NCBI RefSeq assembly: GCF_022808855.1
Contig: NZ_JAKZLF010000005.1
Coordinates: forward strand, 149,487 to 213,486
Length of the DNA: 64,000 nucleotides
Origin: Anaeromyxobacter soli
Lineage (GTDB): Bacteria; Myxococcota; Myxococcia; Myxococcales; Anaeromyxobacteraceae
Direction: 5' to 3'
In this document: piece by piece, positions 43,366 through 61,157 of the stretch
Position numbering within the stretch: position 1 is the first letter of the stretch
Layout: every line of letters begins with the position of its first letter
Position numbers and translations under genes: made by a program
Notes under the pieces: model-generated
Database searches by the model: none
What the model was told of the DNA's origin: nothing
Seen by the model: only the letters and a program-made list of their open reading frames with translations

Positions 43366-46300
43366 TCACGCGAGCACGAGGAGGAGGTCCTCCTTCTCCA
43401 CCTTGTCGCCCTCCTTGAAGCGGACCTCGGCGACGGTGCAGTCCGCCTTCGCCTTCACGTTCGTCTCCATCTTCATCGCCTCGGTGACGAGCAGCACCGC
43501 GCCGGCCTTCACCTGCTCGCCGGCCTTCACGTTCACCTTCACGACCTTGCCGGGCATGGGGGCGCCGACGTGGGCGGGGTTCCCGCGCTCGGCCTTCGGC
43601 CGGGCCTGGGCCCCCTGCGCCGCGGACTGGTCGCGCACGGTGATGGTGCGCGCCTCGCCGTTCAGCTCGAAGAAGAGATCGCGCGTGCCGTCCTTCTCGA
43701 GCTTGCCGACGGTCACGAGGCGCACGATGAGCGTCTTGCCGGGCTCGATCTCGATCGAGGTCTCCTGCCCCGGCTCGAGCCCGTAGAGGAACACCGGCGT
43801 CGGGACGACCGAGGTGTCCGAGAACTCCTCGCGGTGACGCACGAGGTCCGGCCACACGTTCGGGTAGAGCAGCCACGACACGAGCGCCTTGTCGTCCACC
43901 GGTACGCCGGCGCGCTCCGCCGCGCGCGCCCGCTCGCGCTCCAGGTCGGCGGGCTCGAGCAGCTCGCCCGGGCGGCGCGTGATGGGCTCCTGGTCCTTCA
44001 GGATCACCCGGCGGAGCTCCTCCGGGAAGCCGCCGTGAGGCTGGCCGAGCATGCCCCTCGCGAGGCCGACCACCGACTCCGGGAAGGCGAGATCCCTGCC
44101 CTTCTCCGTGAAGAGGTCCTCGGGCTCGAGGCCGTTCTTCACGAGGAACATGGCCATGTCGCCCACGACCTTGGACGACGGCGTCACCTTGACGATGTCC
44201 CCGAAGAGCAGGTTCACCTTCCGGTACATGTCCTTGCACTCCTCCCACCGGTCGAGGAGGCCGAGCCCGGCCACCTGCGGCTTGTAGTTGGAGTACTGGC
44301 CGCCGGGGATCTCGTGGCGATAGACCTCGGCGGTCCCGCTCCGCAGCCCGGACTCGAAGGGCGCGTACCACTCGCGCACCGTCTCCCAGTAAGCGGCGAG
44401 CTCCTGCAGGCCGCCCTCGTCGAGCGCCGGGTCCCGCTCCTCGCCGCGCAGGACGGCCGCGAGCGAGTTCAGGTTGGGCTGGGCGGTGAGGCCGGAGAGG
44501 GGCGCGAGCGCCGCGTCCACCACGTCCACGCCCGCCCGCGCCGCCTCGAGCAGCGTCGCGGACGCCACGCCGGAGGTGTCGTGGGTGTGCAGGTGGACGG
44601 GGATGCCCACCGCCTCCTTGAGCGCCTTCACCAGCTTCGCCGCGGCGAAGGGCTTCAGGAGCCCCGCCATGTCCTTCACCGCGAGGAAGTGTGCGCCCAT
44701 GCGCTCGAGCTCCTTCGCGAGCTTCACGTAGTAGTCGAGCGGGTACTTGTCGCGCCGCGGATCGCTGATGTCGCCCGTGTAGCAGAGCGCCGCCTCCAGC
44801 ACGGCGTTCTTCTGCCGCCGCACCGCCTCGCAGGCGACCGTCATGCCCTTCGTCCAGTTGAGCGAGTCGAAGACGCGGAAGACGTCCACCCCGCTCCTCG
44901 CGGCCTCCTCCACGAACCGCTCGACCACGTTGTCAGGGTAGTTCGTGTACCCGACCGCGTTCGAGCCGCGGAGCAGCATCTGGAAGAGGACGTTCGGGAT
45001 CGCGGCGCGGAGCTTGTGGAGCCGCTCCCAGGGGTCCTCCTTGAGGAAGCGCATCGACACGTCGAACGTCGCGCCTCCCCACAGCTCGAGCGAGAAGAGC
45101 CCTGCGGCGAGGCGGGCGGTGGCGGGGGCGATGCGGACCAGGTCGTCGGTGCGCACGCGCGTCGCGAGCAGCGACTGGTGCGCGTCGCGCATGGTGGTGT
45201 CGGTGAAGAGCAGCCGCCGCTCCTCGAGCGCCCAGCGCGCGAGCCCCTCCGGCCCGCGCTCGAGGAGGAGGTCGCGCGATCCCTTCGGCGGGCGGCCCGA
45301 CATCTCCACCTTCGGCAGGCGCGGCTCGCGGAGCTCCGCCGAGCGGAGCGGCTTCGCCACGCCGGGCGAGCCGTTCACGATCACCTCGCCGAGGTAGCGC
45401 AGGAGCTTCGTGCCGCGGTCCTTCTTGACCTTGGCCTGCATGAGCTCCGGGTGCCCCTCGATGAACGATGTGTCGCAGTCGCCCGCCAGGAACACGGGGT
45501 GGCGCGCGACGTTCTCGAGGAAGGCGATGTTGGTCTTCACCCCGCGGACGCGGAACTCCTGGAGCGAGCGGTCCATCACCCGCGCCGCCGCGCCGAGCGT
45601 CAGCCCCCAGGTGGTGATCTTCACGAGCAGCGAGTCGTAGTGCGGCGTGATAACCGCGCCGGTGAAGGCGCTGCCCGCGTCGAGCCGCACGCCGAACCCG
45701 CCCGGCGAGCGGTACGCCTTCAGCACCCCGTAGTCGGGCGCGAAGCCGTTCTGCGGGTCCTCGGTGGTGATGCGGCACTGGATGGCGAAGCCTCGGCGCT
45801 GCACGTCCTCCTGCCGCGCGATGCCGATCTCCGGATCGGAGAGCTTCTTCCCCTGGGCCACGAGGAGCTGCGCCTGCACGAGGTTGCGGCCGGTGATGCT
45901 CTCCGTGACCGTGTGCTCCACCTGGATGCGCGGGTTCACCTCGATGAAGTAGTGCCGCCCCTCGCGGTCCACGAGGAACTCCACCGTGCCGGCGTTCCGG
46001 TACGCCACGCTGCGCGCGATCTTGAGCGCGTCCTCGCAGATCGCCGCGCGCTGCGCCTCGGAGAGCGCGAGCGAGGGCGCGAACTCGACGACCTTCTGGT
46101 GCCGGCGCTGGATCGAGCAGTCGCGCTCGAACAGGTGGACGAGGTTCCCGTGGTGGTCGCCGAGGATCTGCACCTCGATGTGCTTCGGCCGCTCGATGTA
46201 CCGCTCGAGGAAGACGGCCGGGTTGCCGAACGCCGCGCCCGCCTCGCTGCGCGCCGACACGAGCCCCTCGACGAGCTCGCGCTGGTTGCGGGCGACGCGC

Positions 46301-46815
46301 ATGCCGCGCCCGCCGCCGCCCGCGCTCGCCTTGATGATGATGGGGTAGCCGTGCTCGCGCGCGAAGACGAGCGCCTCCTCGTCGTGCGCGATCGGCTCGG
46401 CGGTGCCGGGCACGACCGGTACGCCCGCCGCCTGCGCCGCCTTGCGGCCCGCCACCTTGTCGCCCAGCCGGCGCTGCATCTCCGGCGTCGGCCCCACGAA
46501 GACGATGCCGGCCCGCTCGCACGCCTCGGCGAACTCCGCGTTCTCGGAGAGGAAGCCGTAGCCGGGGTGGATCGCGTCCACCTCGAGCCGCTTCGCGAGC
46601 GCGACGATCTCCTCGATGCCGAGGTACGCGTCGATGGGCTTCTTGCCCTTGCCGACGAGGTACGCCTCGTCCGCCTTGTAGCGGTGCAGCGAGAGGCGGT
46701 CCTCCTCCGAGTAGATCGCGATCGTCTGGATCCCGAGCTCGGTGCAGGCGCGGAAGATGCGGATGGCGATCTCGCCACGGTTGGCGGCCATCACTCTCTT
46801 GAACGGGACGGGCAT
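43366..46815 (-). CDS. pyc: Pyruvate carboxylase
   Basis: A 1149-residue single-chain enzyme making oxaloacetate from pyruvate, bicarbonate and ATP. Domains in order: biotin carboxylase (~1-455; KRVMAANRGEIAIRIFRA, ASAGGGGRGMRV, FIEVNPRIQVEHTVTE), carboxyltransferase (~530-800; FTDTTMRDAHQSLLATRVRT), the tetramerisation region, and a biotinyl domain with TEAMKMETNV (biotin on Lys ~1115). GAGGAG lies 7 bp before the ATG. This anaplerotic step complements the glyoxylate bypass encoded elsewhere in the window. Confidence 0.96.
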   Translation of the reverse strand: MPVPFKRVMAANRGEIAIRIFRACTELGIQTIAIYSEEDRLSLHRYKADEAYLVGKGKKPIDAYLGIEEIVALAKRLEVDAIHPGYGFLSENAEFAEACERAGIVFVGPTPEMQRRLGDKVAGRKAAQAAGVPVVPGTAEPIAHDEEALVFAREHGYPIIIKASAGGGGRGMRVARNQRELVEGLVSARSEAGAAFGNPAVFLERYIERPKHIEVQILGDHHGNLVHLFERDCSIQRRHQKVVEFAPSLALSEAQRAAICEDALKIARSVAYRNAGTVEFLVDREGRHYFIEVNPRIQVEHTVTESITGRNLVQAQLLVAQGKKLSDPEIGIARQEDVQRRGFAIQCRITTEDPQNGFAPDYGVLKAYRSPGGFGVRLDAGSAFTGAVITPHYDSLLVKITTWGLTLGAAARVMDRSLQEFRVRGVKTNIAFLENVARHPVFLAGDCDTSFIEGHPELMQAKVKKDRGTKLLRYLGEVIVNGSPGVAKPLRSAELREPRLPKVEMSGRPPKGSRDLLLERGPEGLARWALEERRLLFTDTTMRDAHQSLLATRVRTDDLVRIAPATARLAAGLFSLELWGGATFDVSMRFLKEDPWERLHKLRAAIPNVLFQMLLRGSNAVGYTNYPDNVVERFVEEAARSGVDVFRVFDSLNWTKGMTVACEAVRRQKNAVLEAALCYTGDISDPRRDKYPLDYYVKLAKELERMGAHFLAVKDMAGLLKPFAAAKLVKALKEAVGIPVHLHTHDTSGVASATLLEAARAGVDVVDAALAPLSGLTAQPNLNSLAAVLRGEERDPALDEGGLQELAAYWETVREWYAPFESGLRSGTAEVYRHEIPGGQYSNYKPQVAGLGLLDRWEECKDMYRKVNLLFGDIVKVTPSSKVVGDMAMFLVKNGLEPEDLFTEKGRDLAFPESVVGLARGMLGQPHGGFPEELRRVILKDQEPITRRPGELLEPADLERERARAAERAGVPVDDKALVSWLLYPNVWPDLVRHREEFSDTSVVPTPVFLYGLEPGQETSIEIEPGKTLIVRLVTVGKLEKDGTRDLFFELNGEARTITVRDQSAAQGAQARPKAERGNPAHVGAPMPGKVVKVNVKAGEQVKAGAVLLVTEAMKMETNVKAKADCTVAEVRFKEGDKVEKEDLLLVLA

Positions 46816-51514: not shown

Positions 51515-53089
51515 TCAGTGGGTTGGGACGACGGGACGGGACGCTTCGACGGCATACGTTTCGCGCAGCGCGCTCTTCAGGACCTTCCCCATCGCGTTGC
51601 GGGGGAGGTGGTCGACGAAGTGCACGTGCTTCGGGACCTTGTAGGAGGCGAGCCGGGCCTTCAGCGCGCCCACGATCCGGCCGGCGTCGAGCGCCGGATC
51701 GCGCCGGACCACGACGGCGGTGACCGCCTCGCCGAGGTCGCGGTGGGGCACGCCGATGACGGCCGACTCGACGACGCCGGGGAGCGCGTCGAGGGCGAGC
51801 TCGACCTCCTTCGGGTAGACGTTGAACCCGCCGGAGATGACGAGATCGCTCGTCCGACCGACGAGCGTCACGTACCCGTCCTCCGCCACGGTGCCGAGAT
51901 CGCCGGTGCGGAACCAGCCGTCGGCGGTGAAGGCCTCCGCCGTCTTCTCCGGCTGGCGCCAGTAGCCCTTCATCACCGCGGGGCCGCGGATCTGGAGCAC
52001 GCCCACCGCGCCCCGGGAGAGCGGCCGGCCCTCGGCGTCGGCGACGCGCAGCTCGACCCCTTCGATGGCCCTCCCGACGCTGCCCGGACGGCGCTCGCCG
52101 TCGAGCGGGTTCGAGGTGATGACGACGGCCTCCGTCATGCCGTAGCGCTCGAGCACGGCGTGCCCGGTGCGCTCCGCGAAGGCGCGGCTCGTCTCCGCGA
52201 GCAGGGGCGCCGACCCCGAGGTGAAGAGCCGCACGGACCGGCACGCCTCCGGGCCGAACCCGGGCAGATCCAGCAGGCGGGTGTAGAACGTCGGGACGCC
52301 CATCATCGCGGTGGCGCGAGGCAGGAGCTCCGCGACGCGCTCGGCCGAGAACCTGGCGAGGAACAGCATCGCGCTGCCGGAGAGCAGCGCGCAGTGCGCG
52401 GCGATGAAGAGGCCGTGGGCGTGGAACAGCGGCAGCGCGTGCAGCAGCCGATCGCGTTCGGTGAACCCCCACAGGTTCGTCAGGGCCCGGGCGTTGCTCG
52501 CCAGGTTCCCGTGCGTGAGCATCGCGCCCTTCTGCCGCCCGGTCGTCCCGGACGTGTAGAGGATCGCGGCGACGTCGTCGCGCCCGCGGGGCGCGGTGGG
52601 GAACGCGTCGTCCTCGGCGGCGGCGCGCTCCGCGAGCGTCCCCTTCCCCGCGGCGTCCAGCGTGAGGCAGGCCGGGACGCCGCACGCGGCGGCCAGCGGC
52701 GCCTTGCCCGCCGCGTCGGCCGGATCGAACACGAACGCGGCGGGCGCGGCGTCCTCGAGGAAGTACCGGAGCTCCGCCACCGTGTAGGCGGGGTTCAGCG
52801 GGACGTAGATGCCGCCGCGCCGGAGCACCGCCAGGTACAGGCAGTAGGCCTCTGGCGACTTCTCGACCTGGACGGCGACCCGGTCGCCGGGCTCCACCCC
52901 GTGCGCGGCGAGCGCGTTCGCGTACCGCCCGATGAGCGACCGCAGCTCGGCGTACGTGAGCCGCCGCCCGCCGTCCGTCTCGATGAAGGTCGCGTCGTCG
53001 CGCCCGCGCTCCGTGAGGACGTCGAACAGGTTTTCGCTAGGTGCGTCCGTTCGTCGCATCGTCCCGTCCGTTCGGTCGGCATCGTGCAT
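51515..53089 (-). CDS. matB: Malonyl-CoA synthetase (malonate-CoA ligase)
   Basis: A ~524-residue ANL-family ligase forming malonyl-CoA from malonate, ATP and CoA. It has P-loop LYTSGTTGRQKGAMLTH, RYGMTEAVVITSNPLDGERRPGSVG (the MatB-type substrate pocket region), SGGFNVYPKEVELAL and catalytic Lys in MGKVLKS. The ATG at 53089 is exactly 9 bp after a TATACA box, as in two neighbouring malonate genes, and has no SD. An internal ATG at 53059 would give 514 residues and is the more conventional start. It heads the matB-dctPQM operon. Confidence 0.9.
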   Translation of the reverse strand: MHDADRTDGTMRRTDAPSENLFDVLTERGRDDATFIETDGGRRLTYAELRSLIGRYANALAAHGVEPGDRVAVQVEKSPEAYCLYLAVLRRGGIYVPLNPAYTVAELRYFLEDAAPAAFVFDPADAAGKAPLAAACGVPACLTLDAAGKGTLAERAAAEDDAFPTAPRGRDDVAAILYTSGTTGRQKGAMLTHGNLASNARALTNLWGFTERDRLLHALPLFHAHGLFIAAHCALLSGSAMLFLARFSAERVAELLPRATAMMGVPTFYTRLLDLPGFGPEACRSVRLFTSGSAPLLAETSRAFAERTGHAVLERYGMTEAVVITSNPLDGERRPGSVGRAIEGVELRVADAEGRPLSRGAVGVLQIRGPAVMKGYWRQPEKTAEAFTADGWFRTGDLGTVAEDGYVTLVGRTSDLVISGGFNVYPKEVELALDALPGVVESAVIGVPHRDLGEAVTAVVVRRDPALDAGRIVGALKARLASYKVPKHVHFVDHLPRNAMGKVLKSALRETYAVEASRPVVPTH

Positions 53090-53107
53090 TCTGTACGCTG
53101 TATACAA
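53087..53107 (-). promoter_or_regulatory. Malonate operator/promoter site A (matB-dctPQM)
   Basis: On the minus strand TTGTATACA (53107-53099) is followed by 9 nt and the matB ATG (53089-53087). TGTATACA is a palindrome that also offers a -10-like TATACA. It matches site B at 54234-54254 over 18 of 20 positions. No SD is present, and a -35 is not convincing. Confidence 0.6.
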
Positions 53108-53172
53108 AGCAACCTGCGACAAAGCGGTCAACCCCCCGTCCGCCCCCTTGTTGGGGCGGGCGGACGAGCGAC

Positions 53173-54225
53173 TCAGGTCGGGATGGCGGGAGGGGCCGCG
53201 GCGGCGCGGCGGGCGTAGCGCTCGGCGAGGGCCGAGCACGCGAAGAGCTGAAGCTGGTGGTAGCACATGACCGGCAGCACGATCAGGCCGAGGCCGGGCT
53301 GCGCTCCGAACAGCACCTTCGCCATCCCCACTCCCGAGGAGAGCGCCTTCTTCGAGCCGCAGAACACCGCCGCGATCTCGTCCTCCTTCGCGAGCCCCAC
53401 CCAGCCCGCCACCGCCGTCGTGAGGGCGAGCACGAGGGCGAGGAGCACGGCCGCGCCGGCGAGCGTCAGCGCGAGGACCCCGGGGCCGTGGTGCGACCAA
53501 AGGCCCGAGCTCACCGAGTCGCAGAACGCCACGTAGACGATGACGAGGATCACCGCCTTGTCGAGGCGGTGCGCCTGGCGCTCGTGGCGCGCGTAGAAGC
53601 CCCCGAGGAGCGGGCGGAGCGCGAGGCCGACGGCGAGCGGGACGAGGATGAGCACGCCGACGGTGAGGATGGAGCGCGCGAGCGGCGGCCGGCCGCCGCC
53701 GGACGCGCTCCCGGCGAGGGACACGAGGAGCGGCGTCACGAAGACGCCGAGCACGTTCGACGCGATGGCGTTGAAGATCGCGCCGGGGACGTTGCCGCGC
53801 GCGATGCCCGTCATGGCGACGGAGGACGAGATCGTGGACGGCAGCACGCTCAGGTAGAAGAAGCCGAGCAGGAGCGGCCGCGGGAGGAAGCGGCCGAACG
53901 TGGCGCCGAGCGCGAGGTACAGGACCGGGAAGACACAGAACGTGAACGCCTGCACGACGGCGTGGAGCCTCCAGCGCAGGAGCCCGGCCTTCAGGCGAGC
54001 GGTGTCGAGCCCGAGCCCGTGCAGGAGGAAGATGGCGAAGATCCCGGCGTCGGCCACGCGATCGCCGTGCATCGGACCGCCGGTCCTCCCCGCCCCCGGG
54101 AGCGCCGTCGCGAGCACCACCGCGCCGATCATCCCGGCGAGAAACCCGTGTCGCCGCAGCGCGTTACGCTGGCGACCCCCACCTGAGCTCCCGCCTGTCC
54201 GCCCGTTCTCCGGTTGAGCTGGCAT
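53173..54225 (-). CDS. BASS-family (bile acid:sodium symporter-like) transporter
   Basis: A ~350-residue membrane carrier with about nine to ten helices. It has the SBF-like features HGFLAGMIGAVVLATALPGAG, FFYLSVLPSTISSSVAMTGIARGNVPGAIFNAIASNVLGV and CGSKKALSSGVGMAK. The family imports organic acids with sodium. The ATG at 54225 is 9 bp after TATACA on the minus strand, and there is no SD. A later start near LRRHGFLAG is possible. It is divergent from mdcA and upstream of matB, so it is probably a second malonate or related acid carrier; the substrate is inferred from context only. Confidence 0.8.
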   Translation of the reverse strand: MPAQPENGRTGGSSGGGRQRNALRRHGFLAGMIGAVVLATALPGAGRTGGPMHGDRVADAGIFAIFLLHGLGLDTARLKAGLLRWRLHAVVQAFTFCVFPVLYLALGATFGRFLPRPLLLGFFYLSVLPSTISSSVAMTGIARGNVPGAIFNAIASNVLGVFVTPLLVSLAGSASGGGRPPLARSILTVGVLILVPLAVGLALRPLLGGFYARHERQAHRLDKAVILVIVYVAFCDSVSSGLWSHHGPGVLALTLAGAAVLLALVLALTTAVAGWVGLAKEDEIAAVFCGSKKALSSGVGMAKVLFGAQPGLGLIVLPVMCYHQLQLFACSALAERYARRAAAAPPAIPT

Positions 54226-54254
54226 GTTCTCTGTTGTATACAGCATGCAGAATG
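54214..54254. promoter_or_regulatory. Malonate operator/promoter site B, shared by mdcA and the BASS gene
   Basis: The palindrome TGTATACA (54235-54242) gives a -10-like TATACA to each strand. Rightward: TTGAGC (54214-54219), 17 bp, TATACA (54237-54242), 9 bp, ATG of mdcA (54252). Leftward: TATACA (54240-54235), 9 bp, ATG of the BASS gene (54225). Repressor binding would shut both promoters at once. The GntR regulator MatR of Rhizobium is reported to bind TTGTATACAA, nearly the same sequence. Confidence 0.65.
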
Positions 54255-55916
54255 CTGAATACCACCACGCGCGCGCCGGTTCCCGCTTCGCCCTGGAGAA
54301 CACGCCCCGCCGAGAAGGCCCGCCGGCTCGGGCGCGTCGCTCCCTTCGTGGACGGAAAGGCGCTCCGCGCCGACCGGCTGGTGGAGGCGCTCGAGGCGCT
54401 CGTCTCTCCCGGCGACCGCGTGGCGCTGGAGGGCGACAACCAGAAGCAGGCGGACTTCCTGTCGCGCTCGCTCGCGCGGGTGGACCCCGCGGCGGTGCAC
54501 GACGTGCACCTGCTCATCTCCAGCATCAGCCGGCCCGAGCACCTCGCCCTGTTCGAGCACGGGATCGCGCGCAAGGTGGACTTCGCCTTCGCCGGACCGC
54601 AGAGCCTCCGGCTCGCGCAGCTGCTCGAGGACGGCAAGCTCGAGATCGGCGCCATCCACACCTACGTCGAGCTCTACGCGCGGATGTTCGTGGACCTCAC
54701 GCCGAACGTGGCGCTCGTCTGCGCGGACAAGGCGGACGCGCACGGCAACCTCTACACGGGACCGAACACCGAGGACACGCCCACGATCGTGGAGGCGACC
54801 GCGTTCCGCCACGGCGTGGTCGTCGCGCAGGTGAACGAGATCGTGGACGAGCTGCCGCGCGTGGACGTCCCGGGCTCCTGGATCGACCTCGTCGTGGTCG
54901 CCGACAGGCCCTACGCGGTCGAGCCGCTCTTCACGCGCGACCCGCGGCACATCAACGAGCTGCAGATCCTGATGGGGATGATGGTCATCCGCGGGATCTA
55001 CGAGCGGCACGGCGTCACCTCGCTCAACCACGGCATCGGGTTCGACACCGCGGCGATCGAGCTCCTCCTGCCGACCTACGGCGAGTCGCTCGGGCTGCGC
55101 GGCCGGATCTGCCGGAACTGGGCGCTGAACCCCCACCCCACCCTCATCCCCGCCATCGAGCGCGGCTGGGTGGAGAGCGTCCACTGCTTCGGCAGCGAGG
55201 TCGGGATGGAGGACTACGTGCGGGCGCGCCCCGACGTGTTCTTCACCGGCAAGGACGGCAGCCTGCGGTCGAACCGCGTGCTGTGCCAGCTCGCCGGGCA
55301 GTACGGCGTGGACCTCTTCATCGGCTCGACGCTCCAGATGGACGCGGACGCGAACTCCTCCACGGTCACGCTCGGCCGCCTCGCCGGGTTCGGCGGTGCG
55401 CCGAACATGGGCCACGATCCGCGGGGACGCCGTCACGCGAGCGCGCCGTGGCTCGACCTCATCACGGCGGAGGGAGACGTCGTCCGCGGGCGCAAGATCG
55501 TCGTCCAGCTCGCCGAGACCTACCAGAAGGGCGGCCAGCCGGTCTTCGTCGAGTCGCTGGACGCGGTGCAGGTCGGGAAGGCGAGCGGGATGCCGGTCGC
55601 GCCCGTGATGATCTACGGCGACGACGTCACGCACGTCGTGACGGAGGAAGGGATCGCCTACCTCTACCGCGCGGACGGGCCGACGGAGCGCCGCGCGGCC
55701 CTCGCGGCGGTCGCCGGGGCGACGCCCGTGGGGCTCGGAGCCGACGCCCGGCGGACCGAGGGGCTGCGCCGGCGCGGCATCGTCGCGTTCCCCGAGGACC
55801 TCGGCGTGCGCCGCCTCGACGCGAGGCGCTCGCTCCTCGCGGCCCGCAGCATCGACGACCTCGTCGCCTGGTCGGGCGGGCTCTACCGGCCGCCCGCCCG
55901 CTTCCGGTCCTGGTGA
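54252..55916 (+). CDS. mdcA: Malonate decarboxylase alpha subunit (acetyl-S-ACP:malonate ACP transferase)
   Basis: A 554-residue subunit that swaps acetyl for malonyl on the decarboxylase acyl carrier protein. It resembles Klebsiella MdcA throughout: ALEGDNQKQADFLSRSLA, FSGPQSLR-like FAGPQSLRLAQLLEDG, IGAIHTYVELYARMFVDL, LNHGIGFDTAAIELLLPTYGESLGL and the terminal WSGGLYRPPARFRSW. The ATG at 54252 lies 9 bp from the TATACA of site B without an SD. It leads mdcABCDEGH, all on the plus strand with overlaps or gaps of a few bases. Confidence 0.95.
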   Translation: MLNTTTRAPVPASPWRTRPAEKARRLGRVAPFVDGKALRADRLVEALEALVSPGDRVALEGDNQKQADFLSRSLARVDPAAVHDVHLLISSISRPEHLALFEHGIARKVDFAFAGPQSLRLAQLLEDGKLEIGAIHTYVELYARMFVDLTPNVALVCADKADAHGNLYTGPNTEDTPTIVEATAFRHGVVVAQVNEIVDELPRVDVPGSWIDLVVVADRPYAVEPLFTRDPRHINELQILMGMMVIRGIYERHGVTSLNHGIGFDTAAIELLLPTYGESLGLRGRICRNWALNPHPTLIPAIERGWVESVHCFGSEVGMEDYVRARPDVFFTGKDGSLRSNRVLCQLAGQYGVDLFIGSTLQMDADANSSTVTLGRLAGFGGAPNMGHDPRGRRHASAPWLDLITAEGDVVRGRKIVVQLAETYQKGGQPVFVESLDAVQVGKASGMPVAPVMIYGDDVTHVVTEEGIAYLYRADGPTERRAALAAVAGATPVGLGADARRTEGLRRRGIVAFPEDLGVRRLDARRSLLAARSIDDLVAWSGGLYRPPARFRSW

Positions 55917-55920
55917 ACGC

Positions 55921-56793
55921 ATGATCGCGATCGCGCACGCGCCGCCCCCTCACGCCTCGCGGCGGGCCGACCGGCTCGCGGACCTGGCGGTGTCGGCGCT
56001 CCTCGACGAGGCGGAGCTCACGCCCAAGCCCGGCCTCGTCGACCGTCGCGGCAGCGGCGCGCACGCGGACCTCGACCTCCCGACGATGCGCCGCTCCGCC
56101 CACGCGCTCCGCGGCGCCTTCGCCGAGATGGCCCGGGCCGCCCGCGGCTCCCGTCCGGCGGACGCGCTGCGCACCACGCTCGGCGCGATCGGCCGCGAGG
56201 GCGAGGCCGCCATGCTCGCCGCCACCGGCGGCGCGAACGCGCACCGCGGCGCGATCTGGGCGCTCGGCCTCCTCGTCGCCGGCGCCGCCATCGAGGGCGC
56301 CCGCGGCGGGCCCGCGGCGATCGCGGCGCGCGCCGCGGAGCTCGCGCGCTGCCGCGATCGGCTCGCCCCCGTGCCCGAGACGAACGGCGCCCGCGCGTGC
56401 GCCCGCTACGGCGTGCGAGGCGCGCGGGGCGAGGCGGCGTCGGGGTTCCCGCACGTCGTCTCGTGCGGGCACCCTGCCCTGCTCCGGGCGCGCGCGCGGG
56501 GCGCGGCCGAGGACGACGCGCGGCTCGAGGCGCTGCTCGCCGTGATGTCGACGCTCGACGACACCTGCCTGCTGCACCGCGGCGGGCCGCGCGCGCTCCA
56601 CGTCGCCCAGCGCGGCGCCGCGGCGGCGCTCCGGGCGGGCGGACCCGGCACCGCGGCCGGCCGGGCGGCGCTGCTCGCGCTCGACGCCGAGCTCCTCGCC
56701 CTGAACGTCTCGCCCGGCGGGAGCGCCGATCTGCTCGCCGCGGTCCTGTTCCTCGATGGCGTCGGCGCCGAGCTCGCGCCGCCGCGGAGGTGA
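55921..56793 (+). CDS. mdcB: Triphosphoribosyl-dephospho-CoA synthase
   Basis: A 290-residue enzyme making the prosthetic-group precursor 2'-(5''-triphosphoribosyl)-3'-dephospho-CoA from ATP and dephospho-CoA. It has the CitG/MdcB signatures ELTPKPGLVDRRGSGAHADLDLPTM, GGANAHRGAIWALGLLV and STLDDTCLLHRGG. It starts 4 bp after mdcA. The product is transferred to the carrier protein by MdcG. Confidence 0.93.
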   Translation: MIAIAHAPPPHASRRADRLADLAVSALLDEAELTPKPGLVDRRGSGAHADLDLPTMRRSAHALRGAFAEMARAARGSRPADALRTTLGAIGREGEAAMLAATGGANAHRGAIWALGLLVAGAAIEGARGGPAAIAARAAELARCRDRLAPVPETNGARACARYGVRGARGEAASGFPHVVSCGHPALLRARARGAAEDDARLEALLAVMSTLDDTCLLHRGGPRALHVAQRGAAAALRAGGPGTAAGRAALLALDAELLALNVSPGGSADLLAAVLFLDGVGAELAPPRR

Positions 56794-56796
56794 TGC

Positions 56797-57090
56797 ATGG
56801 AGACCCTCGAGTTCCGCTACCCCGCCCGCGATCCCGTCGGGCGCCGCGCGCACGTCGGCGTCGTCGGCTCGGGCGACCTGGAGGTGCTCCTCGAGCCCTC
56901 GGGTGACGGCGAGGCGCGCGTCCGGATCCGCACGACCGTGGACGGCTACGGCCAGGTCTGGCGGAACGTCCTCGACCGGCTCTTCTCGCGCTACCACGGC
57001 GCGGCCGCCATCGAGGTGAACGACTTCGGCGCCACCCCGGGGATGGTGCTCCTCCGCCTCGAGCAGGCCATCGAGGAGAGCGCGCCATGA
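56797..57090 (+). CDS. mdcC: Malonate decarboxylase acyl carrier protein (delta subunit)
   Basis: A 97-residue carrier protein bearing the dephospho-CoA-derived prosthetic group. The modified serine is Ser25 in GVVGSGDLEVLLEP, the same position reported for Klebsiella MdcC. VDGYGQVWRNVLDRLF and EVNDFGATPGMVLLRLEQA are family-typical. Its stop overlaps the mdcD start (ATGA). Confidence 0.94.
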   Translation: METLEFRYPARDPVGRRAHVGVVGSGDLEVLLEPSGDGEARVRIRTTVDGYGQVWRNVLDRLFSRYHGAAAIEVNDFGATPGMVLLRLEQAIEESAP

Positions 57091-57950
57091 GCGCCCCCGT
57101 GACGGAACCTCGACCCCTCGCCCGCGAGAGCTTCATCGAGCTCACCGCGCGCGAGCGCGTGCGGGCCGTGCTCGACGCGGGGCGTTTCCGCGAGCTGCTC
57201 TCGCCCTTCGACCGGCTCCACTCACCGTGGCTGGAGCGGCAGGGGGTCGTGCCCCAGGAGGACGACGGCGTGGTGCTCGCGCGGGGCCGGATCGACGGCG
57301 AGCCGGCCGTCGTGGCGGCGGTGGAGAGCGCGTTCCAGGGCGGCAGCATCGGCGAGGTCGCGGGCACGAAGATCGCCTGCGCCCTGGAGCTCGTGGCGCG
57401 GGACCACGCCCGCGGCGTCCCGACGCGCCCCGTCCTCCTGCTCGAGACGGGCGGCGTGCGGCTGCAGGAGGCGAACCTGGGGCTCGCGGTCATCGCGGAG
57501 ATCCACGCGGCCATCGTCGCCCTCCGTCCTCGCGTGCCGGTGGTCGGGGTCGTGGCGGGGATGGTCGGGTGCTTCGGCGGGATGTCGCTCGCGGCGGCGC
57601 TCTGCAGCCACCTCGTCATGACTCGCCAGGCGCGCCTCGGCATGAACGGCCCCGAGGTGATCGAGCAGGAGGCCGGGCTCGACGAGCTCGACGCCTCGGA
57701 CCGCCGGCTCGTCTGGAGCCTCGTGGGCGGCGAGCAGCGCCACGCGACGGGCCTCGCCGACGCGCTCGTCGAGGACGACGTCGCCGCGGTCGCCGCCGCG
57801 GTCCGCGCCGCGTTCCGGAGCGGGCGCCCGGCCCGGCACCGCACCGAGCAGGTGGAGCTCTTCCTCGATCGCCTCGCGGCGATCGACCCGGCCGGACCGC
57901 CGGAGCCGGCGGCGCTCCGGCAGGCGTGGGGAAACGAGGAGGGCGCATGA
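57087..57950 (+). CDS. mdcD: Malonate decarboxylase beta subunit
   Basis: A 287-residue crotonase/carboxyltransferase-fold subunit which, with MdcE, decarboxylates malonyl-S-ACP to acetyl-S-ACP. It shows ESFIELTARERVRAVLD, QGGSIGEVAGTKIACALELV, LLLETGGVRLQEANLGL and VGVVAGMVGCFGGMSLAAALCS. It overlaps both mdcC and mdcE by 4 bp, indicating coupled synthesis of the two halves of the decarboxylase. Confidence 0.94.
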   Translation: MSAPVTEPRPLARESFIELTARERVRAVLDAGRFRELLSPFDRLHSPWLERQGVVPQEDDGVVLARGRIDGEPAVVAAVESAFQGGSIGEVAGTKIACALELVARDHARGVPTRPVLLLETGGVRLQEANLGLAVIAEIHAAIVALRPRVPVVGVVAGMVGCFGGMSLAAALCSHLVMTRQARLGMNGPEVIEQEAGLDELDASDRRLVWSLVGGEQRHATGLADALVEDDVAAVAAAVRAAFRSGRPARHRTEQVELFLDRLAAIDPAGPPEPAALRQAWGNEEGA

Positions 57951-58777
57951 GCGGATCGAGCTCCAGCGCGAGCCGCGGCGCGACGTGGCTCGCGGCGCTC
58001 ACCGGCGCGGACGGCGCGGTGCAGGGCGGCCCCGCGTCGGTGCGGGTGGTGGACGCGCCGCTCGGTGACGAGCGCGCGCGGTTCCTCGCCGTGGTGCCGG
58101 ACCCGGGCAGCCGCTTCCCGCGCGCGCGGAGCGGCGAGGTGGGCCTCGCGGAGGCCTGGGCGCTCGCCCGCCACGTCCGCGAGGCGATCGCCGCCGACGC
58201 CGACGGCGCCCGCCGCCCGCTCGTCGCGATCGTGGACGTGACGAGCCAGGCGTACGGACGGTGCGAGGAGCTGCTCGGGATCCACCTCGCCTGCGCGGCC
58301 GCCGTCGACGCCTACGCGACGGCGAGGCTCTCGGGCCACCCCGTCGTCGCGCTGCTCGTCGGGTCCGCCATGTCGGGGGCGTTCCTCGCGCACGGGTACC
58401 AGGCGAACCGGATCGTGGCCCTGGACGATCCGGGCGTCCTCGTGCACGCCATGGGCAAGAGCTCGGCGGCGAGGGTGACGCGCCGCTCCGTCGCGGAGGT
58501 GGAGGCGCTCGGGGAGAAGATCCTGCCGATGGCCTACGACGTCCGTGCGTTCGCGCGGCTCGGCCTCGTCGACGAGCTCGTCGGCGGCGTGAACGCCGAC
58601 GCACCGATCGGCGACGACGCCGCGCGCGTCCGGCGATCCCTCGTCGCCGCCGTGGCGAGCGCCCGCTCCGGGGCGCGCCACCTCGGCTGCAGGCTCACCT
58701 CCGCGGCGGCGCGGGAGACGCGCGCCGCGTCGATCGAGGTGCGGCGCAGGCTCGTGGAGCAGTGGTCGGGTGCATGA
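57947..58777 (+). CDS. mdcE: Malonate decarboxylase gamma subunit
   Basis: A 276-residue carboxyltransferase-fold partner of MdcD. AIVDVTSQAYGRCEELLGIHLACAA, VALLVGSAMSGAFLAHGYQANRIVALDDPG and HAMGKSSAARVTRRSV are the conserved blocks. Its ATG overlaps the mdcD TGA. The C-terminus overlaps a possible early start of mdcG. Confidence 0.93.
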   Translation: MSGSSSSASRGATWLAALTGADGAVQGGPASVRVVDAPLGDERARFLAVVPDPGSRFPRARSGEVGLAEAWALARHVREAIAADADGARRPLVAIVDVTSQAYGRCEELLGIHLACAAAVDAYATARLSGHPVVALLVGSAMSGAFLAHGYQANRIVALDDPGVLVHAMGKSSAARVTRRSVAEVEALGEKILPMAYDVRAFARLGLVDELVGGVNADAPIGDDAARVRRSLVAAVASARSGARHLGCRLTSAAARETRAASIEVRRRLVEQWSGA

Positions 58778-58805
58778 GGGGCGCGAGGCCCGCGAGGTGG
58801 GAGGC

Positions 58806-59495
58806 ATGAGTCACGCCGAGCCCGGCGGGCGAGCCGGCCCCGCGCGCCCCGAGGGGTCGGTGCTCCCGCACGATCTCCTCGTGCTCGCGCGCCCGGACGC
58901 CCTCGAGCCCGAGTCCCCGCCGCCGCCGTGGGCGCCGGCGCGCCTGCGCCTCGCGCCGCTCGTCGTCGTCCGGCGCGCGGCTCCACGCGGGACCGCGATC
59001 CCCGTGGGCGTGCGCGGCGCGGAGCGTCGCGAGCGCTTCGCGGCGTGGCTCGCGCCCCAGGCCGTCGCGGCCCGGGTGACGCCCGAGGAGCTCGCCCGCG
59101 CGGCGCGCTGGCGCGAGCGGCGTTCACGCCTGCCCGCGCTCGCGGCGCTCGACGCCGCCTTCGAGATCCTGGCGGCGACGGGGCTCGGGTGGGGACCCGT
59201 CGGCGCGGTCGGGTTCGAGCTCGCGAGCGGCGTCCCTTCCGTCTCGGCGACGAGCGACCTCGACGTGCTCGTGAGGGCCCCTGCGCGCGTGCCCGCGGCG
59301 AGCGCGCGCGCCCTGCTCGCCGCGCTCGCCGGCCTGGCGGCCCGCGTGGACGTGCAGCTCGAGACGCCCGCGGGCGGCGTGGCGCTCGCGGAGCTCGCGG
59401 CGGAGCCGCGGACGGTCGTCGCCCGGACCGCCGCCGGGCCGCGCCGCGTCGCCGATCCCTGGCAGCCCGGCGCGGGCGCGGAGCGCCTCCCGTGA
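58806..59495 (+). CDS. mdcG: Phosphoribosyl-dephospho-CoA transferase
   Basis: A 229-residue nucleotidyltransferase-type enzyme that attaches the MdcB product to MdcC. It has LPHDLLVLARPDAL near the N-terminus, GWGPVGAVGFELASG and the metal-binding SATSDLDVLVRAP (Asp pair). The ATG at 58806 follows GAGGTGGGAGG; an ATG at 58770, overlapping mdcE by 8 bp, would add 12 residues. Its TGA overlaps the GTG of mdcH. Confidence 0.88.
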   Translation: MSHAEPGGRAGPARPEGSVLPHDLLVLARPDALEPESPPPPWAPARLRLAPLVVVRRAAPRGTAIPVGVRGAERRERFAAWLAPQAVAARVTPEELARAARWRERRSRLPALAALDAAFEILAATGLGWGPVGAVGFELASGVPSVSATSDLDVLVRAPARVPAASARALLAALAGLAARVDVQLETPAGGVALAELAAEPRTVVARTAAGPRRVADPWQPGAGAERLP

Positions 59496-60427
59496 GGATC
59501 GCCCTCCTCTGCCCGGGCCAGGGGGCGCAGTCGCCGGGGTTCCTGGATCGCCTCCCCCGCCACCCGGCGGTCACGGCGACGCTCGACGAGGCGAGCGCGG
59601 CGCTCGGGCAGGACGTCCGCTCGCTCGACGACGCGGCCGCGCTCGAGTCCACGGTCGCCGTCCAGCTCACCACGGTGGTCGCCGGCGTCGCGGCGGGCCG
59701 CGTGCTCGCGGCGGAGGACGGCGCGCCCGACGCGGTGGCCGGCCTGTCCGTCGGCACGTTCACCGCGGCGGTGCTCGCCGGCGCGCTGCCGCTCGCCGAG
59801 GCCGTGCGCGCCGTGCGCCTCCGCGCCGAGCTGATGGAGGGCGCGTTCCCGCGCGGCTTCGGGCTCGCCGCGGTCGTCGGTCTGCCCGAGCGGCGCGTCG
59901 CCGCGCTCGTCGCGGAGGTGACCGGGCGAGGTCCTTTGCACGTCGCCAACGTGAACGCGCCCGCGCAGATCGTCCTCGCCGGCGCCGACGCGGCGCTGGA
60001 CGAGGTGCTGGACCGGGCCCGGGTGGCGGGCGCGCGCAGGACGGAGCGGATGGCGGTTGCGGTGCCGTCGCACTGCGCGCTGCTCGCGCCGGTCGCTGCG
60101 CGACTCGCCGCAGCGCTGCGCGACGTCGCGCTCTCCGACGCACGCGTGCCGTACGTCACCTCCGGCCGCGCCCGCCCGACCCGCGACCGCGAGCGGATCC
60201 GGGACGACCTGGCCCGGAACGTGATGGAGCCCGTGCGCTGGCACGACGCGACGACGGTGCTCGTCGAGCTCGGGGTGCGGCTCTTCCTCGAGGTGCCGCC
60301 GGGGCGCACCCTCGCGACGCTCGCGGCCGAGGCGTTCCCCGAGGCGCGGGCGGTCGCCGTCGAGGACGCCGGCGCCGCCGCGGCGGCCGCGCTCGCCCGG
60401 CGCGAGCGCCGCCTGGAACCCCTCTAG
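59492..60427 (+). CDS. mdcH: Malonyl-CoA:ACP transacylase, malonate decarboxylase epsilon subunit
   Basis: A 311-residue acyltransferase that loads the decarboxylase carrier protein with malonyl to start the cycle. It has LLCPGQGAQSPGFLD, nucleophile elbow GLSVGTFTAAV, and active-site His in AVPSHCALL. The start is GTG, overlapping mdcG by 4 bp. The TAG overlaps the stop of the converging regulator gene by 3 bp, so the operon ends here. Confidence 0.92.
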   Translation: MRIALLCPGQGAQSPGFLDRLPRHPAVTATLDEASAALGQDVRSLDDAAALESTVAVQLTTVVAGVAAGRVLAAEDGAPDAVAGLSVGTFTAAVLAGALPLAEAVRAVRLRAELMEGAFPRGFGLAAVVGLPERRVAALVAEVTGRGPLHVANVNAPAQIVLAGADAALDEVLDRARVAGARRTERMAVAVPSHCALLAPVAARLAAALRDVALSDARVPYVTSGRARPTRDRERIRDDLARNVMEPVRWHDATTVLVELGVRLFLEVPPGRTLATLAAEAFPEARAVAVEDAGAAAAAALARRERRLEPL

Positions 60428-61116
60428 CCTGGCACCTTGCGCGCCGCGCTGCGGGCCGCGGCCGCCATGCTCGCGACGACGTCCGCGAAGCGCGCGCCCT
60501 GGATCTCCACGTGGGCCCGGACGTGCTTCGCCGCGAGCTCCCCGTCGCCTCGCCCGATCGCCTCGACGACGAGCTGGTGCTCCGCGAACGACGACTCCAT
60601 CCGCCCGGGCACGCGCAGCTGCAGGCGCCGGAACGGGCGCAGCCGCCGGTGCAGCTGCGTCGCCTGCTCGGCGAGGAACCCGTTGTGGCAGGCGGCGTAC
60701 AGCGCGAGGTGGAACTGCTCGTTCAGCCGGTAGTACGCGTCGGGATCGTTCGCGCGCATCGCCTGCTCGCAGGCCGCGTGCGTCGCGCGGAGCACCGCCC
60801 GGTCCTCGTCGCTGCTGCGCCCCGCCGCGAGCCGCGCGCAGGCGGCCTCGAGCTCGGCCATGACGTCGAACATCTCGCGCAGCCGCTCGGGAGGGATCTC
60901 CGCGACGACGGAGCCCCGCCGCGGACGCATCTCCACGAACCCCGCCGACGCGAGCTGGATGAGCGCCTCGCGGATGGGGGTCCGCGACACGCCGAAGGTC
61001 TTCGCGAGGTCCATCTCGTCGAGGCGCGCGCCCGGCGGGTACTCGCCGACGACGATCCGCTCCTCGATCCGCTCCCGGAGCTGCTCCGAGAGCTTCGTTC
61101 CGATGACTTGTTCCAA
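60424..61116 (-). CDS. GntR/FCD-family regulator of malonate utilisation
   Basis: A 230-residue regulator. The N-terminal winged helix is clear (LRERIEERIVVGEYPPGARLDEMDLAKTFGVSRTPIREALIQLASAGFVEMRPRRGSVV). The FCD ligand domain has metal-ligand-like His and Asp/Asn residues in LNEQFHLALYAACHN and FAEHQLVVEAI. TTG at 61116 is favoured by AGAGG 6 bp upstream; a GTG at 61137 adds 7 residues but lies in operator-like sequence. It resembles MatR/MdcY regulators and is the likely protein binding the TGTATACA-type sites at 53099, 54235 and, for autoregulation, the degenerate site at 61135. Confidence 0.9.
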   Translation of the reverse strand: MEQVIGTKLSEQLRERIEERIVVGEYPPGARLDEMDLAKTFGVSRTPIREALIQLASAGFVEMRPRRGSVVAEIPPERLREMFDVMAELEAACARLAAGRSSDEDRAVLRATHAACEQAMRANDPDAYYRLNEQFHLALYAACHNGFLAEQATQLHRRLRPFRRLQLRVPGRMESSFAEHQLVVEAIGRGDGELAAKHVRAHVEIQGARFADVVASMAAAARSAARKVPG

Positions 61117-61134
61117 TGCGCCCCTCTCGCCGTC

Positions 61135-61157
61135 CACAGCATACAGAATACACGAAT
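61135..61157. promoter_or_regulatory. Degenerate malonate operator, site C, upstream of the GntR gene
   Basis: ACAGCATACAGAAT (61136-61149) matches the ACAGCATGCAGAAT segment of site B at 13 of 14 positions but lacks the TGTATACA palindrome. It lies just upstream of the regulator's start on the opposite strand orientation. A weaker site of this kind fits autoregulation. Confidence 0.45.

Follow-up and report, generated by a model that had tools for sequence, protein, structure and literature searches.

In the FadR subfamily of GntR regulators, operators follow the consensus GTM-N0-1-KAC, and "additional boxes" are reported at a distance of 7-12 nt from their centre (PMC4494728). Leaderless genes are reported in 8 of 33 delta-proteobacterial genomes, at a mean of 15.8% and with a TANNNT element about 12 bp upstream (Zheng et al. 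2011, PMC3160421), and other reports describe the same design in Mycobacterium and Deinococcus (PMC3898074, PMC12340547). Salmonella and E. coli are reported to have symmetrical -10 boxes shared by transcripts whose starts lie 7-25 bp apart (PMC10268837, PMC12825309). A literature search returned no paper on leaderless genes in Anaeromyxobacter and none on the question in Myxococcus xanthus.

The DNA analysed here, which we call the window, is a stretch of 64,000 nt from Anaeromyxobacter soli that contains a malonate locus. The gene for the malonate decarboxylase alpha subunit, mdcA (54252..55916, plus strand; TIGR01110, 940 bits, match from residue 15), is followed by the remaining mdc cluster of six called genes (55921..60427, plus strand), of which the mdcB, mdcD and mdcG proteins were tested and the others were named from their order; profile matches on this strand besides mdcA were to mdcB, the beta subunit and mdcG. 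Divergent from mdcA is a gene for an SBF-like (BASS-type) carrier (53173..54225, minus strand; PF13593, 313.8 bits from residue 27), which has a further in-frame ATG upstream at 54246. It is followed on the same strand by matB, encoding malonyl-CoA synthase (51515..53089 with its start at 53089 or 53059; NF005702, 738 bits from residue 19). A stable hairpin between the carrier stop and matB (53118..53175, minus strand; -29.7 kcal/mol, z -2.18) is consistent with a separate transcription of matB. A GntR/FCD regulator is encoded at 60424..61116 on the minus strand (PF00392, PF07729) and starts at the TTG at 61116, which has a Shine-Dalgarno (SD) sequence of energy -7.4; its orthologs align from residue 1. 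The minus strand of the window also carries a TRAP set (DctP, DctM), and downstream of the TRAP genes lies a pyruvate-carboxylase-type biotin enzyme (43366-46815, minus strand). Outside the Myxococcota, the MdcA proteins nearest to this one (named genomes, L153-L232) share about 78-83% identity with it and come mostly from alpha- and beta-proteobacteria, which suggests a past gene transfer.

A 17-bp imperfect palindrome, TTGTATACAGCATGCAG, lies between mdcA and the carrier gene (54234..54250, no strand assigned), with TGTATACA at 54235-54242, and its motif is also found at malonate genes of two relatives, G011 and G015. A second site, TTGTATACAGCGTACAG, precedes matB (53091..53107, minus strand; TATACA at 53099-53104), and the identical 17-mer stands before dctP in G011. 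When the sites were aligned along the direction of transcription, they gave the 17-bp imperfect palindrome YTGTATAC-N-GTATACAR, from which 6 of 11 sites differ by 1-3 mismatches (matB and mdcA here; dctP, mdcA and gntR in G011; mdcA in G015) and the other five by 4-6, the site of G020 fitting poorly with 6. Before the window's gntR there is a weak candidate, CTGTATGCTGTGGACGG (61130..61146, minus strand; 4 mismatches), and G011 has a better gntR site. A scan of the window's own genome with a near-identical pattern, allowing up to 3 mismatches, returned only the matB site, the mdcA/carrier site and one chance-like site, and within the window TGTATACA occurs at 53099 and 54235 and at no other position. 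The GTATAC at the matB and mdcA sites provides the palindromic GTM-N0-1-KAC core of an FCD-type operator, and a second half-site, lying some 8 nt away from the centre, agrees with the additional boxes reported for the subfamily (PMC4494728).

The proposal that these boxes are a GntR-type operator gains support from their co-occurrence with one group of regulator orthologs and from the predicted operators before mdcA, dctP and gntR in relatives, where G015 has gntR and mdcA divergent. Among 145 genomes searched, close orthologs of the window's GntR (67-80% identity) were found beyond its own genome only in G011, G015 and G020, and all three carry a GTATACA or TGTATAC box in the mdcA region; G092 has an ortholog of 49%. 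Neither form of the box occurs in the mdc loci of G003, G006, G009, G014, G017 and G019 or in the second cluster of the window's own genome, scanned on both strands over each whole locus (the separate upstream stretches of the second-type mdc loci L002, L004, L008 and L009 were not used), and all of these except G006 have a regulator of 38-43% identity. That second mdc cluster (L031, G000:C27:10000-27000), which is without TGTATACA, adjoins a GntR paralog of 42% identity. GTATAC within 350 nt of mdcA was found at 4 of 80 loci from named genomes (Telmatospirillum L153, KBS0706 L155, L211, which is G020, and L218, which is G015), and the N9 spacing described below is absent from all four.

The locus resembles the MatR/MdcY-type FCD GntR regulators in that a GntR/FCD protein adjoins the mdc/mat genes. 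It differs from them in that its site is a 17-bp composite lying on the start region and in that its GntR does not reach the cut-off of any of the 25 NCBIfam models listed for this protein. The sequence-only reading had likened the box to the reported MatR operator, a string for which our literature search found no published description; the relevant part of PMC12303837 deals with the lac operator.

The box at mdcA is very probably also the -10 element, judging from the letters upstream of it in three genera. As had been claimed, TTGAGC stands 17 bp before TATACA (54214..54219 and 54237..54242, plus strand), so that the putative -35 lies inside the carrier gene. The corresponding elements are TTGACG-N16 in G011 and TTGACG-N18 in G020, and G015 has 3 of 6 matches at N15; over these four mdcA loci, G015 included, the joint shuffle p is 0.0002. 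At dctP of G011 the arrangement is TTGACG-N15. A strict consensus scan for sigma-70 promoters over 52900-54450 found none, because TATACA is without the final T. That missing T, the -35 at mdcA and the use of the box as an operator set the locus apart from the TANNNT leaderless genes, with which it shares a -10-like box 9 nt before ATG and the lack of an SD (PMC3160421).

The same symmetrical box is probably also the -10 of the carrier gene (TATACA at 54235..54240, minus strand). The divergent ATGs are 26 bp apart and each lies 9 nt from the one palindrome between them, an arrangement like that of the bidirectional promoters, and the predicted starts, about 21 bp apart, fall inside the 7-25 bp range given for these (PMC10268837). 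The optimum stated there is 18 bp; the locus further differs in that both mRNAs are predicted to have short leaders and the box is an operator. The sequence-only reading assigned the palindrome to both genes as their -10 box, which is supported for mdcA with its conserved -35; the carrier half is less well placed, since no -35 was found upstream of the minus-strand TATACA. Elsewhere in the order, divergent OsmC-like and SET-domain genes of G096 (L251, C120; 4581-5460) have one TGTATACA in common, from which their ATGs are 8 and 6 nt distant; they form another two-way pair with short leaders and have no connection with malonate.

All three genes have TATACA exactly 9 nt before ATG, at 53087-53104 (matB, minus strand), 54223-54240 (carrier, minus strand) and 54237-54254 (mdcA, plus strand), within the range of about 6-9 nt that marks the -10-like box of a leaderless gene. 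Their SD pairing energies, calculated against an assumed anti-SD tail, are -0.1 kcal/mol for matB, -1.7 for the carrier, which keeps a weak AGAG before its ATG, and 0 for mdcA; when the 355 called starts of the genome are ranked, all three fall among the weakest 6 to 12%. The absence of an SD at the three starts is thereby borne out; the accompanying statement that strong SDs precede nearly all other genes went too far, because one called start in five (20%) has an energy weaker than -3 kcal/mol, and the contrast with other genes is thus milder than claimed. No alternative in-frame ATG, GTG or TTG occurs between 54252 and the conserved domain of mdcA. We consider it likely that mdcA is leaderless, its mRNA starting about 0-3 nt ahead of the ATG; for the carrier this is plausible, and for matB the case is weak. 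In G011, mdcA keeps TATACA-N9-ATG with different intervening letters, while two other genera retain the box and start later with an SD, G020 at 31 nt beyond it (energy -9.5) and G015 at 63 nt (energy -8.5), which indicates that the promoter box is steadier than the mode of translation. The suggested fusion of operator, -10 and start codon is supported as regards the operator and, at mdcA, the -10 with its conserved -35; the start codon is no fixed part of the cassette, since mdcA of G020, mdcA of G015 and dctP of G011 have SD-led starts about 30-65 nt away from this operator.

Short distances between a -10-like box and the start are not confined to the malonate genes. In five related genomes, 66 of 979 genes carry TAnnnT at a distance of 12-15 nt ahead of the start codon, where 10.6 would be expected; when position 3 is limited to T or C, the figures are 32 and 5.2. 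Genes were called with our own codon-usage script, which set the starts of mdcA and of the carrier further downstream than is likely, so that these counts do not include those two. Stop codons were rejected as the source of the peak, as TGA is not enriched, and the peak persists when the genes considered are those that have no co-directional neighbour closer than 35 nt; some of the TAG hits may be SD-related. At the genome's other genes with TAnnnT near the start, enrichment of a -35 was not clear (1/24 versus 7/331). Together with the published leaderless and symmetrical -10 cases, these counts mean that the malonate design is not unique.

We propose, with a probability of roughly 0.62 and on the strength of sequence features, conservation and co-occurrence, from which binding, transcript starts, ligand and translation are inferred, that the product of gntR (60424-61116), an FCD-type repressor, binds GTATAC-core operators at the malonate genes and would be released by malonate or a derived compound. 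At mdcA the operator would cover the -10 and the transcription start, and the bound repressor would block polymerase; once it is gone, polymerase would start 0-3 nt upstream of the ATG and yield an mRNA that is translated without an SD. The same box would probably serve as the -10 of the carrier gene, and the two transcripts would then begin on opposite strands some 21 bp from each other. The matB operator would occupy the equivalent position, and translation would start either at 53089, without a leader, or at 53059, behind a leader of about 33 nt.

An alternative explanation is that hexamer and spacing coincide by chance. TATACA-N9-ATG occurs three times in the window and not once in 100 shuffles, and the genome scan that had been suggested (80 contigs, 5.3 Mb; 73% GC in the stretches that were read) added a single further match, at C14:9283, so that three of the four matches lie in one functional island. 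TTGTATACAA, with one mismatch allowed, matches at 53098-53107 and 54234-54243, and matB and mdcA share the context TTGTATACAGC(G/A)T(A/G)CAGAATG, 21 nt that include the start codon and are alike except in two places; because these two have far more than TATACA in common, the three boxes are not independent arrivals of one hexamer. In 24 genomes, TGTATACA was followed by ATG at N4 to N16 in 14 cases, 7 of them at N9, and after removal of three rRNA-type matches 7 of 11 are at N9 (p about 4e-6 under uniform spacing), although the matches are not independent, and the N9 matches that stand at genes are four, the window's three and mdcA of G011. Coincidence finds some support in N9 matches without a called gene start, which include the other three of the seven; TGTATACA-N9-ATG of this kind occurs upstream of matB in G015 and antisense in G020, G016 and G037, where an N9/N9 case has ORFs of just 4 and 30 residues. 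It is nevertheless very improbable, given that shuffling predicts none, that the matches cluster and that mdcA of G011 conserves box and N9 with different letters before the ATG.

Two ideas about the spacing were rejected. The operator letters do not fix N9, as mdcA of G011 and the carrier keep it with other letters, and N9 is not special across the order: outside the family, 46 of 87 non-rRNA hits fall at N6-N9 (26.8 expected) and 12 at N9 itself, in a count that contains many orthologs and from which rRNA-type N15 hits had been excluded beforehand. Several occurrences may be noted in their own right. In G015, TGTATACA-N9-ATG upstream of the SD-led matB (L063, 15563-15570) opens a 7-codon frame, MQGSKSR, which is possibly a leaderless upstream ORF, or chance. 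In G079 (L246) it precedes a 214-residue ORF for which no Pfam match was found, and the same string recurs within that one genus in G033, G070 and G073. In G066 (L252) and G127 (L255), TGTATACA-N6-ATG precedes a conserved 179-residue ORF, presumably GreA-like.

Another explanation would be that TGTATACA is a repressor site and nothing else, lying beside the ATGs by chance, with promoters further upstream and ordinary leaders that lack an SD. The matB box fits this, as it is without a usable -35 and has a TTGACC 21 bp away, and so do the operators of G011 dctP, G015 mdcA and G020 mdcA, which are far from the starts. We consider it unlikely, since the mdcA and carrier starts are 26 bp apart and a longer leader would begin inside the other gene, and since TTGA(C/G) lies 16-18 bp from TATACA in three genera. 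The identical 17-mer about 60 nt before the SD-led dctP of G011 also identifies the letters AGC(G/A)T(A/G)CAG after the box as operator, and as a context for leaderless translation they were rejected.

For matB, the odds are even that translation is SD-led from 53059, 30 nt downstream, which would leave only mdcA and perhaps the carrier leaderless and is compatible with the repressor-and-promoter reading proposed above. The box at matB has 1 of 6 matches to a -35 at 17 bp and no -35 at 15-19 bp. A TTGACC (53126..53131, minus strand) is 21 bp upstream, too far for a -35, and in G015 it is 13 bp from the box; at these distances TATACA is not simply the -10 of matB. MatB of G015 and G004 begins three residues before NLF (M-N-G-NLF and M-S-G-NLF), and the start at 53059 lies 9 residues before NLF and that at 53089 19 residues, so the orthologs point to a true start nearer 53059, though neither matches theirs exactly. 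At 53059 the SD energy, -6.2, is close to the median of the genes and is attained by 54% of called starts, but it is weak evidence because 24% of random ATGs also reach it, and 53089 shares its 21-nt context with mdcA. The two starts predict different N-termini, one containing HDADRTDGT (53089) and the other MRRTDAPSENLF (53059).

The cassette is real and partly conserved in relatives, and it combines known features, namely short-leader genes, core-promoter operators and shared two-way promoters, and introduces no new mechanism. A stronger version, in which one repressor site of a three-gene regulon would combine the roles of operator, -10 for both directions, start point of transcription and context of a leaderless start codon, with the control region of two operons within 26 bp and the mode of translation switched between genera while the promoter stayed unchanged, we put forward only tentatively, as less likely than not in its entirety. 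If true, repression, two-way transcription and leaderless translation would all rest on one 8-bp palindrome, a compact natural case, and the cost and control of leaderless translation could be compared directly between mdcA orthologs whose promoters have the same box but differ in whether a leader follows it. It would also suggest that leaderless starts need attention in the gene annotation of this group.
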